Shown: positions 3,304 to 49,191, numbered from the stretch's first letter. The stretch is 62,417 nucleotides of DNA from a virus (IMGVR_UViG_3300047546_001836:1-62417), one strand, 5' to 3'. Program-made: numbers and translations. Notes: generated by a model not told the origin, from the sequence alone.

Positions 3304-5585
3304 TACGGAATCGCGGTGGGCGTTCGCATCACATTCGCACCAAGGAGGAGGAGGCTGCGCTCATCGAGGACTCCATAGCCTCACTCAAGCCCGAGCAGCG
3401 GAGGCTCTTCCTTCGAATGATCCAAGAGGCGGCGATAGGCTCGAACAGCACCTACCAAGCGATCTCGCGTGCGGTCTTTGATCGGGAGCCGGTAGATATA
3501 CGAACCTTCGTGCAAGATCCATACTTTCTCGGGAAATCGTGCGAGTCGCTTTACGAGCCGCTGAAGGACGAGCTGGATCGAATCTTCGAGGCGGATCGGT
3601 ACATTGACATTATCCTGACAGGGTCGACGGGTTGGGGAAAGACCTTCCTTGGGTCGATCATCTTCTGTCGGCAGCTCTACGAGCTTTCGTGTATGCGTTC
3701 CCCGCAGTCTGCGCTTGGGATTGCGCCTACTTCCAACATATACCTCTTCTGCATGTCGAAGAGCTTGCACCTTGCAAAGAGCGTCGTGCTTGGCAAGGTG
3801 ATGGAGAAGATCAGCAGCTCGCCCTACTTCAAGAAGGAGTTTCCCTGGACGGAGAGGGCGGACGGGATTCGCTTTCCGAAGAGCATTATTGTAGAGATTG
3901 GCTCCGTCAACTCTGAGCGTGCGCTGGGTCTTGACGTCGTTGGCTTCCTCATGGACGAGACGAACTTCATGGGACGCCGGAAGAAGCCTGTCATTCAGTC
4001 CCCTGGGCAGACGATGACGGCGGCGAATTTCGATCTTGCGGAGCGTGTGTATGTCACGCTCACGAATCGTATCAAGAGCCGTTTCCTCTCTGGGGGCAAG
4101 GTGCCGATGAAGACGGTACTGATGTCCTCGAAGACGACTTCGAATTCGTTCTCGGCGCGTCGCGTGAACGAGCGAAAGAACGATCCGACCACCTACGTGG
4201 TTGACAAGGCGACGTGGGACGTCAAGCCTGCCGAGAGCTTCAGTGGCAAGTACTTCCGAGTCTTGGTGGGGCAGGGGTCGACACGCTCTCGCATTCTGGC
4301 CCCGAAGGAGGAGGTGCATCCATCGGCACTTCGGGACGGGAGTACGATCATCAACGTCCCGTTTGAGTACGTCAAGGAGTTTCAGATCAACCTCGTGTCG
4401 AGCATTCAGGACGTTGCTGGCATGGCTACGGACGCTGTGGCGTCCTTCTTGACGATTCAAGCGTGCTTGTACCGTCCTACGATCCGTCCAGAGCTGAAGC
4501 ATCCCTTCTCGAGCGAGACTTGGATTCTTCAGAGCAAGCTACTCCCGCTTTGGGACGTCTTGTGTGAGCGAAAGAAGATCAAGGTTGGCATGGGGCATCA
4601 TGAGTATCGTTGGGTTCCGCGTCGTCACCCTGACTCGGTTCGTGTGATCCATGTCGATCAGTCGTTGGCGCGAGACGGGCTTGGGATCAGCATGGGGCAT
4701 ACGACGCGCTTGGTGCAGGTCGAGCGGCGTTCGCCTGACTTTGCGGAGACCTACTTCGAGTCAGCGCCTGAGATCGAGATCGACTTCGTCTTGAGGGTGA
4801 AGCCTCCGAGCGGAGAGTACATCCTGCTTCAAGAGATTCGGGCGTTGATTTACGCGCTTCGGGATCATGGCTTCGAGATAGCGTTGACGACGTTGGACAA
4901 GTATCAGTCAGCGGACGGAATCCAGATCCTTCGTGACAATGGGATACCGGCGAACCTCCTCTCGGTGGACGACGGGACGGAGGCGTATGAGGCGCTTCGA
5001 AACGCGCTCATGGAGGGGCGTGTTCGGATGTACGAGTACGAACCCTTCCTGACCGAGATGAAGCAGCTCGAGTACGACCCGCTGTCGCGGAAGGTGGATC
5101 ACCCGCTTGGTGGATCGAAGGACACGTCTGACGCTGTGGCTGGCGTGGTGACGAACCTTGAATTGATGGCCCTTCGGCAGGCGTCGTACATTGATTCGGA
5201 CTTGGTGCATGGGGGGGCGGATCTCGAGGACACGCATTGGGTCACGCAGGACTCGATCAATCCTCGAGCGCCGTTCCGGCACCAAAACGTGGAGCTACGT
5301 CACCTTCGTGGTGCTGCCCCTGAGCCTGATCCGATCCTAACGCAGAAGGCGATTGAGGCTGCTCGGGAGTATCCGAATGGCACCACAGAGGAGGACGGGT
5401 TGGAGTGGGTTTCCCCTTCGAAGACCCCCGAGAACTGGCGAGAGTGGGACGGGGGCGGCATGACGGAGCTGGATCGGCGCGAGTACGCCCCTGTAGAGCG
5501 GCTCAACGACGCGGGGCTTGAGACGAAGAAGGGGACGAGCGACGCGAACCCGGACGTCCCCGCCCCTCCCTTCATCATGGGCTGA
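3300..5585 (+). CDS. terL: Large terminase (DNA-packaging ATPase and nuclease)
   Basis: The packaging motor pumps DNA into the prohead by ATP hydrolysis and cuts the concatemer. Of 761 residues, about 108-117 hold the Walker A-like TGSTGWGKT and about 212-222 the Walker B strand VVGFLMDETNF. The C-terminal half has RNase H-like nuclease features: an Asp after a beta strand (IHVDQSLARDG, about residue 450) and GGSKDTSDAVAG (about 605-615) with the metal-binding Asp pair. It starts at GTG overlapping the previous stop, with GGAGGG as SD. It is longer than the usual 500-600 residues, mainly through a C-terminal extension. The dispersed palindrome follows its stop codon. Confidence 0.9.
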   Translation: MIRNRGGRSHHIRTKEEEAALIEDSIASLKPEQRRLFLRMIQEAAIGSNSTYQAISRAVFDREPVDIRTFVQDPYFLGKSCESLYEPLKDELDRIFEADRYIDIILTGSTGWGKTFLGSIIFCRQLYELSCMRSPQSALGIAPTSNIYLFCMSKSLHLAKSVVLGKVMEKISSSPYFKKEFPWTERADGIRFPKSIIVEIGSVNSERALGLDVVGFLMDETNFMGRRKKPVIQSPGQTMTAANFDLAERVYVTLTNRIKSRFLSGGKVPMKTVLMSSKTTSNSFSARRVNERKNDPTTYVVDKATWDVKPAESFSGKYFRVLVGQGSTRSRILAPKEEVHPSALRDGSTIINVPFEYVKEFQINLVSSIQDVAGMATDAVASFLTIQACLYRPTIRPELKHPFSSETWILQSKLLPLWDVLCERKKIKVGMGHHEYRWVPRRHPDSVRVIHVDQSLARDGLGISMGHTTRLVQVERRSPDFAETYFESAPEIEIDFVLRVKPPSGEYILLQEIRALIYALRDHGFEIALTTLDKYQSADGIQILRDNGIPANLLSVDDGTEAYEALRNALMEGRVRMYEYEPFLTEMKQLEYDPLSRKVDHPLGGSKDTSDAVAGVVTNLELMALRQASYIDSDLVHGGADLEDTHWVTQDSINPRAPFRHQNVELRHLRGAAPEPDPILTQKAIEAAREYPNGTTEEDGLEWVSPSKTPENWREWDGGGMTELDRREYAPVERLNDAGLETKKGTSDANPDVPAPPFIMG

Positions 5586-5603: not shown

Positions 5604-5648
5604 TTGCCCACCAAGGAGGAATCGAACAAGGGAGCGAGAGGGAACCCG

Positions 5649-6143
5649 ATGGACAGCTACTTCATTCGCGTCAACCGCCTTCCTGGCTCCGTCCGCACCG
5701 TCCTTGCGCCGATCACGCGCATGGTGCTTGGCTTTCACCCCTGGCAGAACAATTCCGACTTCATTCCTGACTGGAATTGGAAGTCGAAGGAGACGGGGGA
5801 GCAAGAGCGGAGGATTCCCCTGCATCGTCCTGCAGGCTACCAGCTTGGCTTGTGGATTCTCGCGTTGATCCTTTGCGAGACGGACATCGACGAGATCGAG
5901 GCGGAGACCTCGTTGAGCTTGGAGTACTACACGCTCATTCCCGAGGACGAGGACTACGACCCCGAGTGCGCGGGGTGGCAATTGGTAATCCACCAAGACC
6001 CGCTCGACACGCGCTACGTCCCCCTCCCGTGGCTAACGCTCGCCCCGGACGATCCGATGCCGAAGACGCTGCTCTCCGCGATTCGGATCGCGCTCTCGAA
6101 CGCTCGGGATCGCGGCTTGGTGGCTCCCTCCGAAGGCACATGA
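5649..6143 (+). CDS. Unknown protein after terminase
   Basis: A 164-residue protein. I start it at ATG 5649 after the AGAGGG sequence; a TTG at 5604 in the same frame would place the AAGGAGG sequence inside the gene. It contains a hydrophobic helix (GLWILALILC) and an acidic stretch (EDEDYDPE). No family recognised. It lies between the terminase and a DNA methyltransferase and has 38 bases to the next start. Confidence 0.6.
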   Translation: MDSYFIRVNRLPGSVRTVLAPITRMVLGFHPWQNNSDFIPDWNWKSKETGEQERRIPLHRPAGYQLGLWILALILCETDIDEIEAETSLSLEYYTLIPEDEDYDPECAGWQLVIHQDPLDTRYVPLPWLTLAPDDPMPKTLLSAIRIALSNARDRGLVAPSEGT

Positions 6144-6181
6144 CCCGATCCTGTGATAGATCGCCCTATCACGGAGCGTTC

Positions 6182-7618
6182 ATGATTCCCAGGATACACA
6201 TTGGTGATTCCCTCGCGTACCTTCGCCAAATCCCCGACAACTACTACCACGCCATTGTGACGGATGCTCCGTATGGTCTCTCCTCTGCGGAGGAGCAGGA
6301 GCGGATGCAGCGTCAGGTGCTTCTGGAGTGGAGCGAGTGGCTTCGCTTGGTGCTGGAGGCGGAGGCTCGAGGGGAGCGGTACACGGGGCCAGCGACGCGC
6401 ACCAAGCCTAAGAGCGGGATCGGGGGGAAGGAGTGGGATGCCTGGGTGCCTGGGCCAGATTTCTGGTACGAGTGCTTTCGCGTCCTTCGTCCTGGGGGCT
6501 ACCTGCTGACCTTCTCTGGGACGCGCACGTTCGACCTCATGGGGATGGCGCTTCGTCTTGCGGGATTCCAGCAGCGCGGCATGATCACTTGGCACTACGC
6601 GACCGGGATGCCTCGGGGTCTCAATATAGGGCTTGCCATCGACGACCACCTTGGTGTCAGCTCCCGTGAGGGGGAGCTGTCGAATCGGGGGGCTGGAAGG
6701 GATCACACCAAGCTGCTCAATCCTACGGCGAGCGTAGGATACGGGGACGGGGAGAGTCGCGTCTTCCGTCGCCTTCACCCCGCTTCTGAGGAGGGCAAGC
6801 GTTTCGAGGATTGGCATTCAGGGCTGAAGCCTGCGACCGAGCCGATCTCAGTGGTGCAGAAGCCGATCAGTGAGGCGACCATTGCGGAGAACATGCTGAA
6901 GTGGGGGACGGGGGGCTTCAACATCAAGTCCTGCCGGATCGGCTCCGAGGGGGCGCGAGTGACGGCTTCAGGGAAGCGCAAGCTGCTCGATTCGAACGCG
7001 CATGGGGAGTATCGCTCGCTTCCTGCTCAGAGCTACGACATGGGGCGGTTTCCGGCGAACGTGGTCATGACGCACGCATTCGAATGCACCTCCACCAAGT
7101 GCGTCGTGGGCTGTCCTGTGCTTGCGATGCATGGGCAGGTCGACCCGTTCGCTGATCCGCTCTCGGCGGAGAGCATGCGCTTCAACAACCACCAATGGAC
7201 GGATCACGACGGCTTCGTCTACTGCCCGAAGCCGACCCTGGAGGAGAAGGATCTGGGTTTGCAGCATCTGCCCCCGCTCAAGGTCTTCGACAATTCGGAC
7301 GGCACCAAGACCGAGCGTTGGAATCCGCATGTCTCTGTGAAGCCTGTGGAGCTGATGCGTTGGTGCCTGAACCTCATCACGGCCCCCGGTGGCGAGATCC
7401 TCGATCCGTTTGCAGGCTCTGGCACCACGGGCGTGGCTGCCGTCCTGAATCGCCAGTCGATCACCCTCATTGAGCGAGATCCCGCGATGGAGTCCGTCAT
7501 TTACGGTCGGTGCGACTACGCCTCCCGTGAGGTTCAGGGGCTTCCGCAGCGGCCCCGCTACGACGAAGCCACGAAGCCGAAGCCTCGTCAAGCGCAGGTC
7601 GGACTCTTTGGTGAGTGA
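6182..7618 (+). CDS. DNA methyltransferase, beta class (N6-adenine or N4-cytosine)
   Basis: It transfers a methyl group from S-adenosylmethionine to an exocyclic amino group in DNA. The 478-residue protein has catalytic motif IV near the N-terminus as DAPYG (residues 28-32; the usual form is D/N-P-P-Y/F) and the SAM-binding motif I near the C-terminus as ILDPFAGSGTTG, preceded by HVSVKPVELMRW. This order is that of beta-class enzymes. A Cys-containing middle segment (FECTSTKC, VGCP, YCPKP) is shared with phage modification methylases. The Ala in place of the first Pro in motif IV is unusual. I chose ATG 6182 with ACGGAG upstream; the frame is open further upstream but that overlaps the previous gene. 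It likely protects phage DNA or marks it for regulation. Target unknown. Confidence 0.85.
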   Translation: MIPRIHIGDSLAYLRQIPDNYYHAIVTDAPYGLSSAEEQERMQRQVLLEWSEWLRLVLEAEARGERYTGPATRTKPKSGIGGKEWDAWVPGPDFWYECFRVLRPGGYLLTFSGTRTFDLMGMALRLAGFQQRGMITWHYATGMPRGLNIGLAIDDHLGVSSREGELSNRGAGRDHTKLLNPTASVGYGDGESRVFRRLHPASEEGKRFEDWHSGLKPATEPISVVQKPISEATIAENMLKWGTGGFNIKSCRIGSEGARVTASGKRKLLDSNAHGEYRSLPAQSYDMGRFPANVVMTHAFECTSTKCVVGCPVLAMHGQVDPFADPLSAESMRFNNHQWTDHDGFVYCPKPTLEEKDLGLQHLPPLKVFDNSDGTKTERWNPHVSVKPVELMRWCLNLITAPGGEILDPFAGSGTTGVAAVLNRQSITLIERDPAMESVIYGRCDYASREVQGLPQRPRYDEATKPKPRQAQVGLFGE

Positions 7619-7980: not shown

Positions 7981-8904
7981 ATGTCCGACGTCATGTATCC
8001 GCAAGAAGCTCTGGCAACGACGGCAGCGAAGTCGACTTCGTCGCACCATACGCTCGACTTCAATCCTGCTCTTGAGATCGCCAAGATCGAGAAGAATCCC
8101 CTGAATCCGAACACGATGAACGAGCGTGAGTTCGCTCGCTTGGTGAAGGAGATTCAAGAGGTTGGGATGATCGCCCCTATTCAGGTATGGCCGACCCCAC
8201 ATGGGACGTTCCAGCTCATTGGTGGCGAGCATCGCATGCGTGCGTGCGCTTCGCTTGGCCACACGACCATACCCGCCATGATCATTCACGATCCCAAGAT
8301 CGCGGGCAACGACCAAGCCTGCAAGGATCTTCGCAACCTGATCACCATGAGGCTCAACCTCATCCACGGCAGGGTGAGTCCCGAGAAATTCTCGAAGCTC
8401 TACATGGATCTGATCCTTCGCCACCCGGCGGAGCTTCTTCAGGAGGCAATGGGCATCACCGACGACAAGTCGTATGAAAAGCTCCTGTCGTCTGCTCGGC
8501 TCTCCGTAAAGCAAGCCCTGGACAGCGTAGACAAGCAGACTCGAAGCAAGAAGCTCCAAGAGTTCGACAAAGCCGCTTCAGGGGCCAAGACCCCCGAGGA
8601 TCTGAGCAACATCATCTCGAAGGTGTTCACGACGGACGGCAATGAGCTTGGCTCGCACTTCTTGGTGTTCTCCTACGGGGGCAAGGATCATATTTACGTC
8701 AACGTGGCTTCCGAGGAGCGATTCGCCTTCTTACATGAGAAGCTGCGGGGATTCAAGGAGAATGGGATCGAGCCTGCGGACGTCCTTCTCGATCTCTTGA
8801 ATGGGTACGTTCCTTCGGCTGCGCTCATGCAGGATACGGCACCAGAAGATCCGCCCCCGCCTCCTGCGGACGAATCCTGTCAAGAAGAAGTCAAGACGGC
8901 CTAA
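7981..8904 (+). CDS. ParB-like nuclease/CTPase-domain protein
   Basis: A 307-residue protein with the ParB N-terminal signature: LVKEIQEVGMIAPIQV, then GGEHRMRACASLGH at about residues 80-93. This fold binds CTP in chromosome-partition ParB and acts as a nuclease in some relatives. A helical middle (about 120-190) could hold the DNA-binding region. The C-terminus is Pro/Glu-rich. Its first 20 codons contain the palindrome CGAAGTCGACTTCG (8027-8040), read as AKSTSS. It is grouped with a methyltransferase and winged-helix gene. Possible roles are plasmid-like partition, gene regulation or DNA nicking. ParB-like domains are frequent in phages without partition. Confidence 0.8.
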   Translation: MSDVMYPQEALATTAAKSTSSHHTLDFNPALEIAKIEKNPLNPNTMNEREFARLVKEIQEVGMIAPIQVWPTPHGTFQLIGGEHRMRACASLGHTTIPAMIIHDPKIAGNDQACKDLRNLITMRLNLIHGRVSPEKFSKLYMDLILRHPAELLQEAMGITDDKSYEKLLSSARLSVKQALDSVDKQTRSKKLQEFDKAASGAKTPEDLSNIISKVFTTDGNELGSHFLVFSYGGKDHIYVNVASEERFAFLHEKLRGFKENGIEPADVLLDLLNGYVPSAALMQDTAPEDPPPPPADESCQEEVKTA

Positions 8905-44357: not shown

Positions 44358-44975
44358 ATGAGCCAGTCCCCTCCTCAGCCGTCGAAGTTTGCTCCTGACG
44401 CGGATCTTCTGGCCGCATTGGTGCAGCAGGCGCAATTCTCTCCTGCCGAGGCGGAGGAGATCGAGCGCGAGATCGCCGCAGTGGTGAACAGCCTGGGTCG
44501 AGATCCGGCTTGGGAGGACGATCCCGAGGCATGGGGGATCGTCTCCTCCTTCTTTCCGAATGGCTGGACGTCGCCACCAAGACCTCCGACGCTCCGTCCG
44601 AGTGCTGAGCATTGGTGGGGCTTCTTGGTGGCGACCCTTCTGCGGAAGGCCCGCGTCTACTCGTATCGTGTCTGGCGGTACGTCTCCTTTCGTGCCGGTC
44701 GGCCCATTGCTCCCTTTCATGGCTTCATGTGGGCCGAGGAGGCGCACCTCTACGGATTCATTCAGGCAAAGGGGGAGGTGGAGGTCACCATGCAGTACAA
44801 GCAGCGGGTGAAGCTCCAGCAGCCCCTCCAGCGGGATCTCTTCGGCAAGAAGACGATCCTCACCCTGGAGGGCGACGGATCGGGAACGCTCCTGATCGGC
44901 TCCATTCCGCACCAAGTACGAGGCTGGTTCGACGTCGAGCTTCTTGCGCTGGCCCCGCTCAAGCCAGCTACATGA
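44358..44975 (+). CDS. Unknown protein
   Basis: A 205-residue protein. ATG 44358 is the last of overlapping starts after GAGGGGGC. N-terminus is Pro/Ala-rich and helical; the middle has WWGFLVATLLRKARVYSYRVW and EEAHLYGFIQAKGEVEVTM. No family. The TGTCAAG box follows its stop. Confidence 0.5.
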   Translation: MSQSPPQPSKFAPDADLLAALVQQAQFSPAEAEEIEREIAAVVNSLGRDPAWEDDPEAWGIVSSFFPNGWTSPPRPPTLRPSAEHWWGFLVATLLRKARVYSYRVWRYVSFRAGRPIAPFHGFMWAEEAHLYGFIQAKGEVEVTMQYKQRVKLQQPLQRDLFGKKTILTLEGDGSGTLLIGSIPHQVRGWFDVELLALAPLKPAT

Positions 44976-45045
44976 TTGTGTCAAGAACATGCTAAGCCCC
45001 CCGAGACCCCCTCCTCCTCTCGGCGCTCGTCCCTATCTTGGGGGC

Positions 45046-45414
45046 ATGAACACGGACATCGAGGAGAAGGGGCTGACCCTGGAGGAGTCCAAGGTCAGCG
45101 CGAGGAACCTGCTCGGGCAGGCGGATCAGGCTCGGCTGAACCGGGCCAAGAAGCTCAACGTCATGAGGGCGACGGCGCGGAAGTGCCGCGTCATTCAGGC
45201 GCGAGTCGAGTCTCACTCGAAGTGGGACGTCTCTCACTACGAGGTCTTGATCGACCTCAAGGTGCCGTTCTTCCAGTGTACCTGCGCCGATCATGGGCAG
45301 ACGTCTGGCCCGTGCAAGCACGTGGCCGCTGTCCTCCAGCGGTACGTCGGCCCAGCCGAGGTCGAGGTCTCGGCGGCGGCTGCGGAGGTGCCGAATGGCG
45401 TTCAGGGTAGCTAA
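45046..45414 (+). CDS. SWIM zinc-finger protein
   Basis: A 122-residue protein with the SWIM pattern C-x-C...C-x-H: FQCTCADHGQTSGPCKHVAAVL (Cys78, Cys80, Cys90, His92). SWIM domains bind DNA or proteins. It starts at ATG 45046, six bases after TATCTT and without a strong SD, compatible with leaderless initiation. It overlaps the next gene by 20 bases and begins the segment that leads to the AAA ATPase. Confidence 0.7.
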   Translation: MNTDIEEKGLTLEESKVSARNLLGQADQARLNRAKKLNVMRATARKCRVIQARVESHSKWDVSHYEVLIDLKVPFFQCTCADHGQTSGPCKHVAAVLQRYVGPAEVEVSAAAAEVPNGVQGS

Positions 45415-46018: not shown

Positions 46019-47821
46019 ATGAGCATTCAGCAAGCCGAGCCTAATGCGCCGGTTCGATTCCTTCCCGCCGACCTCGAGGCTGTCCTCGCCTCACGCGTCG
46101 GCATGGTGTGCGTCGAGACCCGAGAGGAGGTGCGCTACCTCAGCGATCTCCGCCTCGCCGCCCTCGGTACGGGGCGTGACTTCTGGATCTGGACTGCCAC
46201 CAAAGGCTTCCAGCAGGCGAGGAGCTATGCGGAGATCGCCGTGGAGGCTCACTCGATCATGAAGGCCGAGAGCATCTCGGAATCGGACGCCACCAAGCGT
46301 GTCGTTCAGTACAAAAACCCGGCGCTGTTCAACAACGCGCCGATCCGCCAGTTGGCGGCTGCCCTCGGCCACATTGACGTCGCGCTGACGAACCTGATCA
46401 GCAAGGGGCCGCTCAAGGAGAAGGAGTCGCCCAGCGGGGACGTTTTCGACTTCCGGGGCTATGGCAAGAACAGCATGCCATGGATCGTGTTTCTCGACGC
46501 TTGGCGATACGTCGCGGAGCATGCGGTAGAGGCGCGGGCATTGCGCGACCTCACCTTCCGGCTTCGGGCGCAGGGGCTGACGCTGATCTTCCTCGACGCT
46601 AAGACGCAGGCGTCAATCCCTGGGCTGGACATTGACGCGCTCCGCATTCAGCCTGGGACGCCGGGGGCAGATGAGCTTCGCAAGCAGCTTAGCAGCCTCC
46701 TTCGCCAGTCGAAGGCGACGTCCCCGGTCGTCATTCCCTACGAGGCACCCGACAAGCTCGCGGCATTGGTGACGGCATGCAAGGGTCTCTCCCTTGTGGA
46801 GATGCGGAACTTCGTCAGCATTGCGATCCGCAATGCGACGGAAGACCCCTCAAAGGAGCTGATCGCGGAGGTCACGAAGGCGAAGGTCGAGTCCATCTCG
46901 AAGGGCGGAATGCTCACATTCTACCCGCCGAAGCCGATGGCCGAGATCGGGGGCATGGGGGAATTCAAGCGGTGGATCGGGATCAGAAAGCGTGCGTTCT
47001 CGCCCGAGGCGCTCAAGTTCGGCGTAAAGGCTCCGAAGGGGGTGCTGATGCTTGGTGTACCGGGAACGGGCAAGAGCGCCTCCGTCGCAGCCGTCGCGTC
47101 GCTCCTCGAGGTGCCGTGTCTCCGCCTCGACATGGGCCAGCTTTTCGCTGGGCTTGTGGGGGCTTCCGAGGAAAACACCCGCAAGACCCTGGCTCTCGCT
47201 GAGAAGCTTTCCCCTTGCGTTCTCTGGCTCGACGAGATCGAGAAGGGGCTGAGCGGTGCCGCCTCCAGCGGGTCGTCGGACGGCGGGACGATGTCGCGTG
47301 TAATGGGGACGATCCTGTCATGGATGAATGACAAGCGCGATCCTGTGTTCGTCATGGCGACGGCGAACGATATCAGCAAGCTCCCGCCTGAGCTGCTGCG
47401 AAAGGGGCGCTTCGACGAGATCTTCTTCGTCGACCTCCCTAACGCGGACGAGCGAAAGGAGATCCTCGGGATTCACATTCGGAAGACGGGACGCAATCCT
47501 GACGCGATCACGAATTCGAATTCGGTGGGGCAGATCCTCGAGGCGACCGAGGGCTTCTCTGGTGCTGAGATCGAGGGCGTGGTGCAGGAAGCCGTGCTGA
47601 TCGCCTTTGACGACGGCATGCGGGATCTGACGGTGGCGGATCTAACACAAGCGGCCAACGCGACACGCCCGCTCTCGAAGACTATGGGCGATCAGATCAA
47701 GGCAATGCAGGCGTTCGGTCGGGATCGGGCGCGTCTGGCTCGCTCGCTGGAGGTTGTGAAGCCTTCGCCCGCGCCGCTCTCTCCCCTGATCTCGTATCAG
47801 AGCGACGACTTCGACGCCTGA
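46019..47821 (+). CDS. Ycf46-like AAA ATPase
   Basis: A 600-residue protein. Its N-terminal ~300 residues match the Ycf46 layout (DLEAVLASRVGMVCVETREE, then YLSDLRL, and TLIFLDAKTQASIPGLDID, GLSLVEMRNFVSIAI). The AAA module has Walker A GVPGTGKS (about 346-353), Walker B CVLWLDEIEK (about 399-408), a second-region-of-homology GRFDEIFFVDLP and a helical lid. Ycf46 proteins are known from cyanobacteria and plastids, where they occur with DUF1257/Ycf35. Here the DUF2997- and DUF1257-like genes follow within 1 kb, which supports the call. Probably an energy-dependent remodeller of unknown targets. A palindrome copy is read as TNSNSV (47511-47524). Confidence 0.8.
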   Translation: MSIQQAEPNAPVRFLPADLEAVLASRVGMVCVETREEVRYLSDLRLAALGTGRDFWIWTATKGFQQARSYAEIAVEAHSIMKAESISESDATKRVVQYKNPALFNNAPIRQLAAALGHIDVALTNLISKGPLKEKESPSGDVFDFRGYGKNSMPWIVFLDAWRYVAEHAVEARALRDLTFRLRAQGLTLIFLDAKTQASIPGLDIDALRIQPGTPGADELRKQLSSLLRQSKATSPVVIPYEAPDKLAALVTACKGLSLVEMRNFVSIAIRNATEDPSKELIAEVTKAKVESISKGGMLTFYPPKPMAEIGGMGEFKRWIGIRKRAFSPEALKFGVKAPKGVLMLGVPGTGKSASVAAVASLLEVPCLRLDMGQLFAGLVGASEENTRKTLALAEKLSPCVLWLDEIEKGLSGAASSGSSDGGTMSRVMGTILSWMNDKRDPVFVMATANDISKLPPELLRKGRFDEIFFVDLPNADERKEILGIHIRKTGRNPDAITNSNSVGQILEATEGFSGAEIEGVVQEAVLIAFDDGMRDLTVADLTQAANATRPLSKTMGDQIKAMQAFGRDRARLARSLEVVKPSPAPLSPLISYQSDDFDA

Positions 47822-47890
47822 ATTGTCAGGATCGTGTCAAGGCGCGGACAAACCCGCGTCGGTGCCTATCTTAGAGGGGCTGGAGGTAGG

Positions 47891-48466
47891 GTGAGGATCT
47901 ACGGAGAGATCGTACCGTCGAGAGTCGACGGCCCTGGGCTGCGAGCTGTCCTGCACACGGCGGGGTGCAGCATTGGCTGCCCAGGGTGCTTCAATCCCCA
48001 CACCCACAGCCCCGCTGGGGTGTTGGTGCGACACTTCACCCCTGAGGCGCTCGTTCGTGAGGTGCTGAGCGTCAGCACGCACCTCACGATCTCGGGGGGG
48101 GAACCCACAGATCAGCTCCCTGAGCTGCTCGAGTTCCTGCGCGTGGCTCGCCCCCGAGTGGAGAGCGTCATTCTCTACTCGGGCCGCACGCGATCCTTCC
48201 TCCTCAAGCGCCCCCTTTGGTGCCAGATCGAGGGGGAGGGCTTGGTGGACACGCTGATCGACGGGCCGTTCGACCTGCGTCAGCCAGAGACCGTCCGCAT
48301 GGCTGGTTCCGCCAACCAGCAATTTCACCACCTCACTAACCGCTTCAGCGAATTCGACTTCGCTCAGCGGGGGACGGAGATCCAGATCGCCCCGGACGGT
48401 TCCGTGACATTTCTGGGGTTCCCTTCCCAGAGAATGCTGAATATGTTCTCACGACAAGGAGTGTAA
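47891..48466 (+). CDS. nrdG-like: Radical SAM activase, NrdG-like
   Basis: A 191-residue protein; GTG 47891 after GGAGGTAGG. The cluster motif CSIGCPGC (Cys26, Cys30, Cys33; CX3CX2C) binds a [4Fe-4S] cluster that cleaves SAM. DGPGLRAVLHTAGC and PGCFNPHTHSP match anaerobic ribonucleotide reductase activating proteins, and ISGGEPTDQ is the SAM-binding GGE motif. NrdG would activate an anaerobic NrdD, but none is in the window, and its partner could also be the adjacent Ycf46-like cassette. The in-frame palindrome encodes SEFDFAQ (48349-48362). Confidence 0.75.
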   Translation: MRIYGEIVPSRVDGPGLRAVLHTAGCSIGCPGCFNPHTHSPAGVLVRHFTPEALVREVLSVSTHLTISGGEPTDQLPELLEFLRVARPRVESVILYSGRTRSFLLKRPLWCQIEGEGLVDTLIDGPFDLRQPETVRMAGSANQQFHHLTNRFSEFDFAQRGTEIQIAPDGSVTFLGFPSQRMLNMFSRQGV

Positions 48467-48467
48467 A

Positions 48468-48719
48468 ATGCAACAAGTGACCGTGATCATCGATCCCTCG
48501 GCTTTCGAGATCGGGAGCCGCTACAAGAACGACCTCAAGGGTGGCCCGCAGAAGATCGCTGTGAGCGCCGAGGTCACCGCTGGTGGCCCCGGTGGTGCTG
48601 GCTGCGTGGCGCTCGTCGAGGGCGTCATTGGTGGGCTTCTGCCCCGAGGCGTCGCCGTCGAGCAGAAGGACGACGAGCAGGAGTCGATCATCCTCGGCAT
48701 GGTCGGCGCGGGTCGCTGA
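48468..48719 (+). CDS. DUF2997-like small protein
   Basis: An 83-residue protein starting MQQVTVIIDPSAFEI, with an AGCVALVEGVIGGLLPRGVAVEQKDDEQ C-terminal part that resembles DUF2997 proteins (start with a beta strand, then G..C...V.AL..A.G). SD CAAGGAGTG. It immediately precedes the DUF1257-like gene, the usual neighbour of DUF2997. Function unknown. Confidence 0.6.
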   Translation: MQQVTVIIDPSAFEIGSRYKNDLKGGPQKIAVSAEVTAGGPGGAGCVALVEGVIGGLLPRGVAVEQKDDEQESIILGMVGAGR

Positions 48720-48747
48720 TCTTCCCAACCTCACCTCAGGAGTTCAA

Positions 48748-49191
48748 ATGTCAGCCTACACCCCTATCAAGTGTCCCCAGATCACGAACCTGCGCCTGCT
48801 GAAGAAGGCGCTCGCCGCAACGCTCAAGATCCGCGAGCAGGATCTGCTCTATTTTGAGAACGGCACGAACCTCAAGGGCTACCGCCATGAGACGCAGCGC
48901 GCCCACTTGGTGCTGGCTGGGTCGCAGCATGGGAGGGGTGTCGTGGTGACGTCGCCTGGGGGCTACAACGACGTCGGCTTCGAGCGGGTCGTGACGGACG
49001 GGGTCACCCACTGGGTGCCGCACGTCCCCGACCATGACGGGGCGTTCCATAACACGGACTGGCTTCGTCAGACCCTCGCGACCTACGCCGAGGAGCTGAC
49101 GATGGAGTCCGCGATTGCGGAGGGGTACGGGGTCGAGAAGACCGTGCTGCCTGACGGTCGCATCCAGCTCGTCTGCTCTCGCTACTCGTAG
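48748..49191 (+). CDS. DUF1257/Ycf35-like protein
   Basis: A 147-residue protein; ATG 48748 after CAGGAGTTC. Its MSAYTPIKCPQITNLRLLKKAL start, NLKGYRHETQRAHLVL and VGFERVVTDGVTHWVPHV, and C-terminal YGVEKTVLPDGRIQLVCSRYS match the DUF1257 (Ycf35) layout, which begins with a short strand, a helix LxxLxxAL, a GYR/GxTQKA segment and a C-terminal VxxxxDGxIxL. In cyanobacteria and other bacteria it is encoded near Ycf46 and DUF2997. A terminator follows. Confidence 0.7.
   Translation: MSAYTPIKCPQITNLRLLKKALAATLKIREQDLLYFENGTNLKGYRHETQRAHLVLAGSQHGRGVVVTSPGGYNDVGFERVVTDGVTHWVPHVPDHDGAFHNTDWLRQTLATYAEELTMESAIAEGYGVEKTVLPDGRIQLVCSRYS

Follow-up and report, generated by a model that had tools for sequence, protein, structure and literature searches.

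The 62,417-nucleotide viral sequence IMGVR_UViG_3300047546_001836 (hereafter the window, meaning the whole stretch at its full length) carries at positions 46019-49191 four consecutive genes on the + strand, encoding a Ycf46-type AAA+ ATPase, a radical S-adenosylmethionine (SAM) enzyme of the NrdG/pyruvate formate-lyase (PFL) activase type, a small protein tentatively placed in the DUF2997 family, and a DUF1257 (Ycf35-like) protein. Gene calls and family matches agree with a preliminary description of this DNA, which had recognized a run of an ATPase, a radical SAM protein, and two small proteins; as judged from sequence, three of the four gene identifications are firm and one, DUF2997, is tentative. 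A Shine-Dalgarno-like purine-rich stretch lies upstream of each of the four genes. The window is part of a contractile-tailed phage, in which a portal protein, a head maturation protease, a tail sheath protein, a tape measure protein, and the thymidylate synthase ThyX were found, the last encoded downstream of the cassette. A 139,496-base IMG/VR contig matches 61,858 window bases at 99.9-100% identity, with the final 0.4 kb dropping to 80%. The database collections on which the following comparisons draw were sampled, not exhausted.

The four gene products

The ATPase (46019-47821, 600 aa) matches PF00004 (6e-28) and AAA_lid_3 (2e-9) over residues 342-542, and phrog_8638, a PHROG family of unknown function, at 1e-116. 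Its C-terminal AAA+ module is intact, with Walker A at residues 346-353, Walker B ending at residue 406, sensor 1, and an arginine finger at residues 461-466; a motif check of the N-terminal 300 residues found no Walker A in the N-domain. Family-to-family comparison by hhalign relates this N-domain to that of cyanobacterial homologues (probability 100, E 7.5e-55), and the window ATPase alone is related to the same domain at a probability of 93.5 and an E-value of 2e-7, the homologues being chromosomal proteins taken as Ycf46 by size, taxon, and architecture rather than by comparison with slr0374 itself. An AlphaFold model of the N-terminal region alone (mean predicted local distance difference test score, pLDDT, of 75) resembles AAA+ modules in the PDB (PCH-2/TRIP13, RFC, and spastin; best E 2e-5, probability 1.00). 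For the region of about residues 16-295, the prediction is an AAA+ module in degenerate form, and the ATPase is read on that ground as a double-module AAA+ protein, and the combination of a live C-terminal module with the shared N-terminal domain confirms, as a matter of sequence comparison, the Ycf46 architecture. An assignment to the IetAS defence system was rejected, as only the AAA module of the ATPase fits IetA and the three partner proteins lack any PADLOC match.

The radical SAM gene (47891-48466) encodes 191 aa, or 210 aa if translation begins at the GTG at 47834 chosen in the preliminary description. The GTG at 47891, which sits behind GGAGG, is probably the start, because it is in line with the start positions of relatives; residue numbers given here are counted from 47834. 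The protein matches PF13353 (5e-19) and PF04055 (2e-8), and NrdG is both its top PHROG model and its top NCBIfam model (TIGR02491), the latter at 69.3 bits and thus below the equivalog cut-off of 126.1. The characteristic motifs are intact, namely C45-x3-C49-x2-C52, which would bind a [4Fe-4S] cluster, GGEP at residues 88-91, and VDGPGLR, and these profile matches and motifs confirm an enzyme of the NrdG/PFL-activase type. The Asp of VDGPGLR (D32) precedes the first Cys by exactly 13 residues. Judged by distance from the Cys motif, with the cluster cysteines of the PFL activating enzyme (PFL-AE) being Cys29/33/36, D32 lies at the place of PFL-AE Asp16 and N54 at that of Asn38. These are the two residues that hold the Gly734 peptide in place in PFL-AE (PMC9326890); since both anchor positions are occupied in kind, the residues point to a protein loop as the substrate of the cassette enzyme.

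A search of the near-identical 139-kb contig, a record that may be incomplete, found no NrdD (PF13597), and no glycyl-radical domain (PF01228) was found in that contig or in the window; a role as the NrdG serving a ribonucleotide reductase (RNR) of the phage was rejected on these grounds. The phage G004 carries NrdD near a canonical NrdG (40-46 kb); at 87 kb, a second radical SAM gene adjoins its AAA gene. The lack of NrdD in the 139-kb contig and the separate NrdG of G004 make it unlikely that the cassette enzyme is NrdG, the class III RNR activase.

The fourth gene (48748-49191) encodes a 147-aa protein that matches PF06868 at 2.5e-4 and 21.7 bits, slightly below the cut-off of 22.2, and that is recovered at E=1.9e-13 by a DUF1257 profile made without the window phage, the best shuffled sequence reaching E=27. 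Its AlphaFold model (pLDDT 86, predicted template modelling score 0.81) gave no match at E <= 0.001 in a fold search of the PDB, and tblastn of the protein against named phages gave no match. The 83-aa product of the third gene (48468-48719) has no Pfam hit to DUF2997 and scores no higher than shuffles with a leave-one-out DUF2997 profile in HMMER. Comparison with DUF2997 by hhalign gave a score of 26.7, over 20 columns only, with 60 shuffles reaching 15.7 at most, and the protein fits the family in size, position, and its G-x-x-G-x-x-C core; it is tentatively regarded as a diverged DUF2997 protein with an internal insertion. An early iterative DUF2997 model that took in the 83-aa protein was circular, having been seeded with that protein, and was replaced by the leave-one-out test. 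The preliminary description had named the families of all four products, and its Ycf46-like ATPase (by intact AAA+ motifs and N-domain homology), its NrdG-like radical SAM protein (as to type, by PF13353, PF04055, and the top model), and its DUF1257 protein (by the leave-one-out profile) hold up; its DUF2997 protein is favoured by the profile alignment, size, position, and core, and disfavoured by Pfam and by leave-one-out HMMER.

Occurrence in phages and cellular genomes

In five named phages (JP1, RcDurkin, FBPa45, HJ05, and L338C), an AAA gene is followed by DUF1257 and DUF2997, and no radical SAM gene was found in these modules. The IMG/VR sample consists of 80 loci listed by AAA similarity, equivalent to 79 contigs (L017 and L018 share one contig); DUF1257 lies inside the fetched flanks of the AAA gene in 29 of the 79, and a radical SAM gene lies near it only in L015 and L017. 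By gene content, AAA+DUF1257+DUF2997 is thus a widespread phage module, whereas the radical SAM gene is rare in phages (the window and the two contigs listed), and the core can presumably function without that enzyme because most phage versions have none. Single-sequence scans of viral_contigs, for which the AAA, radical SAM, and DUF1257 proteins of the window served as queries, returned only the near-identical 139-kb contig. AAA relatives also occur on plasmids and in a phage satellite. The hosts of related phages include Rhizobium, Agrobacterium, Pseudomonas, Aeromonas, and Rhodobacter, which argues that the target of the cassette is not specific to oxygenic photosynthesis.

The window AAA sequence alone recovered no relative from genome_contigs, and an alignment query of the same collection did recover AAA relatives. 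Among the matches listed in the AAA-similarity scan, a radical SAM gene adjoins the AAA gene in cellular loci L096, L101, L104, L110, L131, and L138. In a survey of 244 genomes from the cyanobacterial phylum, DUF2997 (PF11211) was found in 150; in four other groups, it exceeds the cut-off in only 3/148, 2/297, 1/299, and 8/148 genomes. The above-cut-off loci of these four groups, picked by DUF2997 alone, number 16, some genomes holding two, and eight of them have an activase-type radical SAM gene in the neighbourhood. In two Clostridia (L182/L183), a gene adjoining the AAA encodes a 184-aa fusion of DUF1257 with DUF2997. In cyanobacteria, the Ycf35 gene follows DUF2997, and in L246, the single locus read more widely, a ferredoxin-like gene comes after both; the published cyanobacterial cluster g likewise comprises DUF2997, Ycf35, and the ferredoxin Fed7 (PMC4284462).

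The preliminary description had taken Ycf46, DUF2997, and DUF1257 to be neighbours in cyanobacteria. This stands for DUF2997 with ycf35 and not for ycf46, which is not adjacent to them in the typical cyanobacterial loci examined and is usually located elsewhere (PMC4284462). Its proposal of a coherent, Fe-S-linked system gains from the recurrence of the families together in phages, bacteria, and archaea, from the DUF1257-DUF2997 fusion, and from the Fe-S proteins that accompany them, be it ferredoxin (PMC4284462), an NrdG-like radical SAM protein (8 of the 16 loci), or a MiaB-like one. The last (UPF0004 + Radical_SAM) was noted at 5630-7009 of the Clostridial locus L230, adjoining a fused DUF1257-DUF2997 protein and an AAA. 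Transfer into the phage as a unit is not supported: the phage core commonly occurs without radical SAM, and the trees of the AAA and of the radical SAM proteins disagree. In the AAA tree, the window ATPase falls in a clade (support 0.86) whose AAAs, from phages and cells, are for the most part linked to DUF1257; in the radical SAM tree, the window enzyme clusters with radical SAMs of cellular cassettes and not with NrdG references (0.79). Support is low at several nodes of both trees, which give a coarse grouping only. Activase-type radical SAM genes adjoin AAAs from several separate groups of the AAA tree. As the window AAA and radical SAM group differently, the association between them looks repeated or reshuffled, from the trees, and not like one transfer of a four-gene unit.

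Several further features were observed at related loci. Similar operons in L232 (Pseudomonadota) and L242 (archaeal) encode a large protein, a PLD-like or uncharacterised protein, an activase-type radical SAM protein, DUF2997, and an AAA; the large protein of L232 is a superfamily 1 (SF1) helicase, and L241 resembles these operons in part. They look like a mobile, possibly defence-related island. In L241, the radical SAM frame (4879-5337, 152 aa) has no CX3CX2C and may be shortened by the choice of frame or start rather than inactive. A C-terminal tail, R-x-[ILV]-[DE]-[LIFWV], is common to AAAs and unrelated neighbours (HHH, TPR, and unknown proteins) in L023-L091, L101, L104, L131, and L243-L245. 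In phage loci without DUF1257, hydrophobic-acid-hydrophobic ends are found in 30/45 AAAs and 8/32 next genes, compared with 3/532 other genes, and in cells the tag is present in 15/74 neighbours of tagged AAAs vs 2/289 near untagged ones; to judge by this pattern, the tail is possibly a docking or client tag. It was rejected as a client tag in the window, where the AAA ends in DDFDA and the tail is in no called gene. In the Clostridial loci L229 (4080-5589) and L230 (2900-5645), several proteins encoded in a row next to the DUF1257-DUF2997 fusion and the AAA begin with R-x-I-[RK]-F, a motif echoed near the AAA C-terminus.

The window itself contains, with up to two mismatches, 38 sites of the palindrome CGAATTCGAATTCG, from 2364 to 60618 (e.g., 45941, 47511, and 48349), and the near-identical 139-kb contig has 91, or about one per 1.57 kb. 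Shuffles with a closely related 14-mer give a chance expectation of about one match in the window. The sites occur in both coding and intergenic DNA and are spaced more evenly than random (coefficient of variation 0.43 vs a median of 0.95, with none of 2000 simulations as low). The window also encodes a DNA methyltransferase (5777-7615) and a ParB-like protein (7981-8901), and, upstream of the cassette, a protein (44944-45414) in which a SWIM-type zinc-finger-like motif (CxC...CxH) was spotted by eye.

Proposed mechanism and alternatives

The reading that we tentatively prefer, as possible but short of probable, is that the cassette couples a machine that remodels proteins at the expense of ATP to a radical SAM enzyme that modifies protein. 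A ring of the Ycf46-type AAA+ protein, with its dead N-terminal and live C-terminal module, would open or thread a client; the DUF1257 protein and the small DUF2997-like protein would together act as client adaptor, and the glycyl-radical-activase-type radical SAM enzyme would act on a loop of the client backbone after opening. In other family members, ferredoxin fills the Fe-S place. On this model the proteins would form a complex, the ATPase and the radical SAM enzyme would share a client that is a protein, and the cassette might modify a host or phage target, as the preliminary description had suggested. In PFL, the Gly loop is buried, and activation hence requires a large conformational change (PMC9326890), so that an unfoldase would have a rational role. 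Counted in favour of this reading are the intact motifs of the C-terminal module, the predicted AAA+ fold of an N-domain in which no Walker A was found, the two peptide-anchoring residues of the radical SAM enzyme, the DUF1257-DUF2997 fusion, the activase-type radical SAM genes at 8 of the 16 DUF2997 loci and next to AAAs of several tree groups, and, as regards NrdD, the negative search of the 139-kb contig and the separate NrdG of G004. Rather doubtful, to our mind, is the broader proposal that bacteria, archaea, and phages share an undescribed class of AAA+-powered protein-modification machines, with a double-module Ycf46-type ATPase and a DUF1257/DUF2997 adaptor opening the client for an activase-type radical SAM enzyme, and that the phage set is a complete one.

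A number of observations weigh against the remodelling and modification machine. No client was identified, and the window and the 139-kb contig encode no recognisable glycyl-radical protein by PF01228. Most phage copies of the AAA/DUF1257/DUF2997 core are without radical SAM, the phage radical SAMs of L015 and L017 have no acidic anchor residue, and the DUF2997 assignment of the 83-aa protein is weak. The AAA tree sets the window ATPase apart from cellular radical-SAM-linked AAAs, and the radical SAM tree groups differently. The open-access literature yielded neither a functional description of the gene set nor biochemistry of the family, nor any paper joining the DUF2997/DUF1257 families with radical SAM, and the sole phenotype found comes from Synechocystis, where a mutant in ycf46 is altered in its CO2 use (Jiang et al., 2015, as cited in PMC7496141).

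Two alternatives, both of which we consider unlikely, would reduce the part of the radical SAM enzyme in the system. The enzyme could simply be NrdG, serving a class III RNR that belongs to the host or is encoded beyond the sequenced DNA; its position in the operon would then be incidental, and the core would work alone. NrdG is indeed its top NCBIfam and PHROG model, tblastn relatives occur in 1,867 phage records, of which the annotated ones among the matches listed are mostly NrdG, and the surroundings, with ThyX downstream, are those of nucleotide metabolism; yet the NrdG score is 69 vs a cut-off of 126, the searches for PF13597 (139-kb contig) and PF01228 (window and 139-kb contig) were negative, the window enzyme clusters, at modest support (0.79), with radical SAMs from cellular cassettes, and G004 keeps a separate NrdG beside NrdD. 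Alternatively, the AAA/DUF1257/DUF2997 core could remodel phage replication or DNA-metabolism proteins, with radical SAM as a minor accessory maturation factor. The modules of HJ05 and L338C precede a gene with a replication-protein-O-like match, but a weak one that lies under the Pfam cut-off, and the likeness of the ATPase N-domain model to RFC and TRIP13 modules is generic to AAA+ folds. The next gene encodes RNase H in JP1 and ThyX in the window, but the cellular loci read have no consistent replication neighbour.

A counter-defence or superinfection-exclusion system taken from mobile cellular loci seems distinctly improbable. It would suit the patchy, cross-phylum spread outside cyanobacteria, the SF1 helicase or PLD-like protein encoded in the same operon as some relatives (a proteobacterium, an archaeal contig), and the AAA relatives on plasmids and in a phage satellite. 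PADLOC, on the other hand, matches only the IetA AAA module and generic AAA models and leaves the rest of the cassette unmatched, and the presence of DUF2997 in 150/244 genomes from the cyanobacterial phylum speaks for an origin in housekeeping. Least credible, and in our estimate scarcely to be expected, is that the phage uses the cassette as an auxiliary metabolic set directed at redox or carbon metabolism in the host, a role suggested for Synechocystis Ycf46. Jiang et al. (2015), as cited in PMC7496141, describe a ycf46 mutant with lower EcaB carbonic anhydrase activity and a ycf46 operon responsive to iron and other stress, and in red algae the presence of ycf35 and ycf46 follows marine vs freshwater habitat (PMC5940233). 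Set against these are the absence of any recognised photosynthesis gene among the window genes examined and the five host genera of related phages listed above.

Relation to known systems

All three families, Ycf46, Ycf35 (DUF1257), and DUF2997, occur widely in cyanobacteria, and two of them are also encoded by plastids. The recurring Fe-S partner, either ferredoxin or an activase-type radical SAM protein, the DUF1257-DUF2997 fusion, and the pairing of a predicted degenerate with an active AAA+ module suggest a concrete hypothesis for the family, and the phage version, being compact, would lend itself to expression and client pull-down.

Among known systems, the closest in cyanobacteria is the DUF2997-Ycf35-Fed7 cluster, which shares with the cassette DUF1257, probably DUF2997, and an Fe-S protein, together with the AAA architecture; there, ferredoxin takes the place of radical SAM and Ycf46 (slr0374) is usually encoded elsewhere. 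The modules of JP1, RcDurkin, FBPa45, HJ05, and L338C, also in tailed phages, have an AAA of the same family with DUF1257 and DUF2997, but they carry one or more unrelated proteins of ~200-320 aa between the AAA and the DUFs, whose order differs from that in the window. The cellular radical SAM-AAA-DUF2997 clusters of Clostridium peptidivorans (L131), Gastranaerophilales (L101, with relatives L244-L245), Microbacterium (L138), and an archaeal contig (L096) have, as in the window, an AAA and an activase-type radical SAM, mostly with DUF2997 and in several cases with a DUF1257-like protein; they differ in often having extra HHH or TPR proteins and the common C-terminal tail, and their AAAs belong to other tree groups. 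The NrdG and PFL-AE activases resemble the cassette enzyme in being short and in possessing CX3CX2C, (D/E/N)GPGxR, an Asn after the third Cys, and GGEP, whereas the cassette enzyme scores under the NrdG equivalog cut-off and comes from a phage in which no glycyl-radical enzyme was found.

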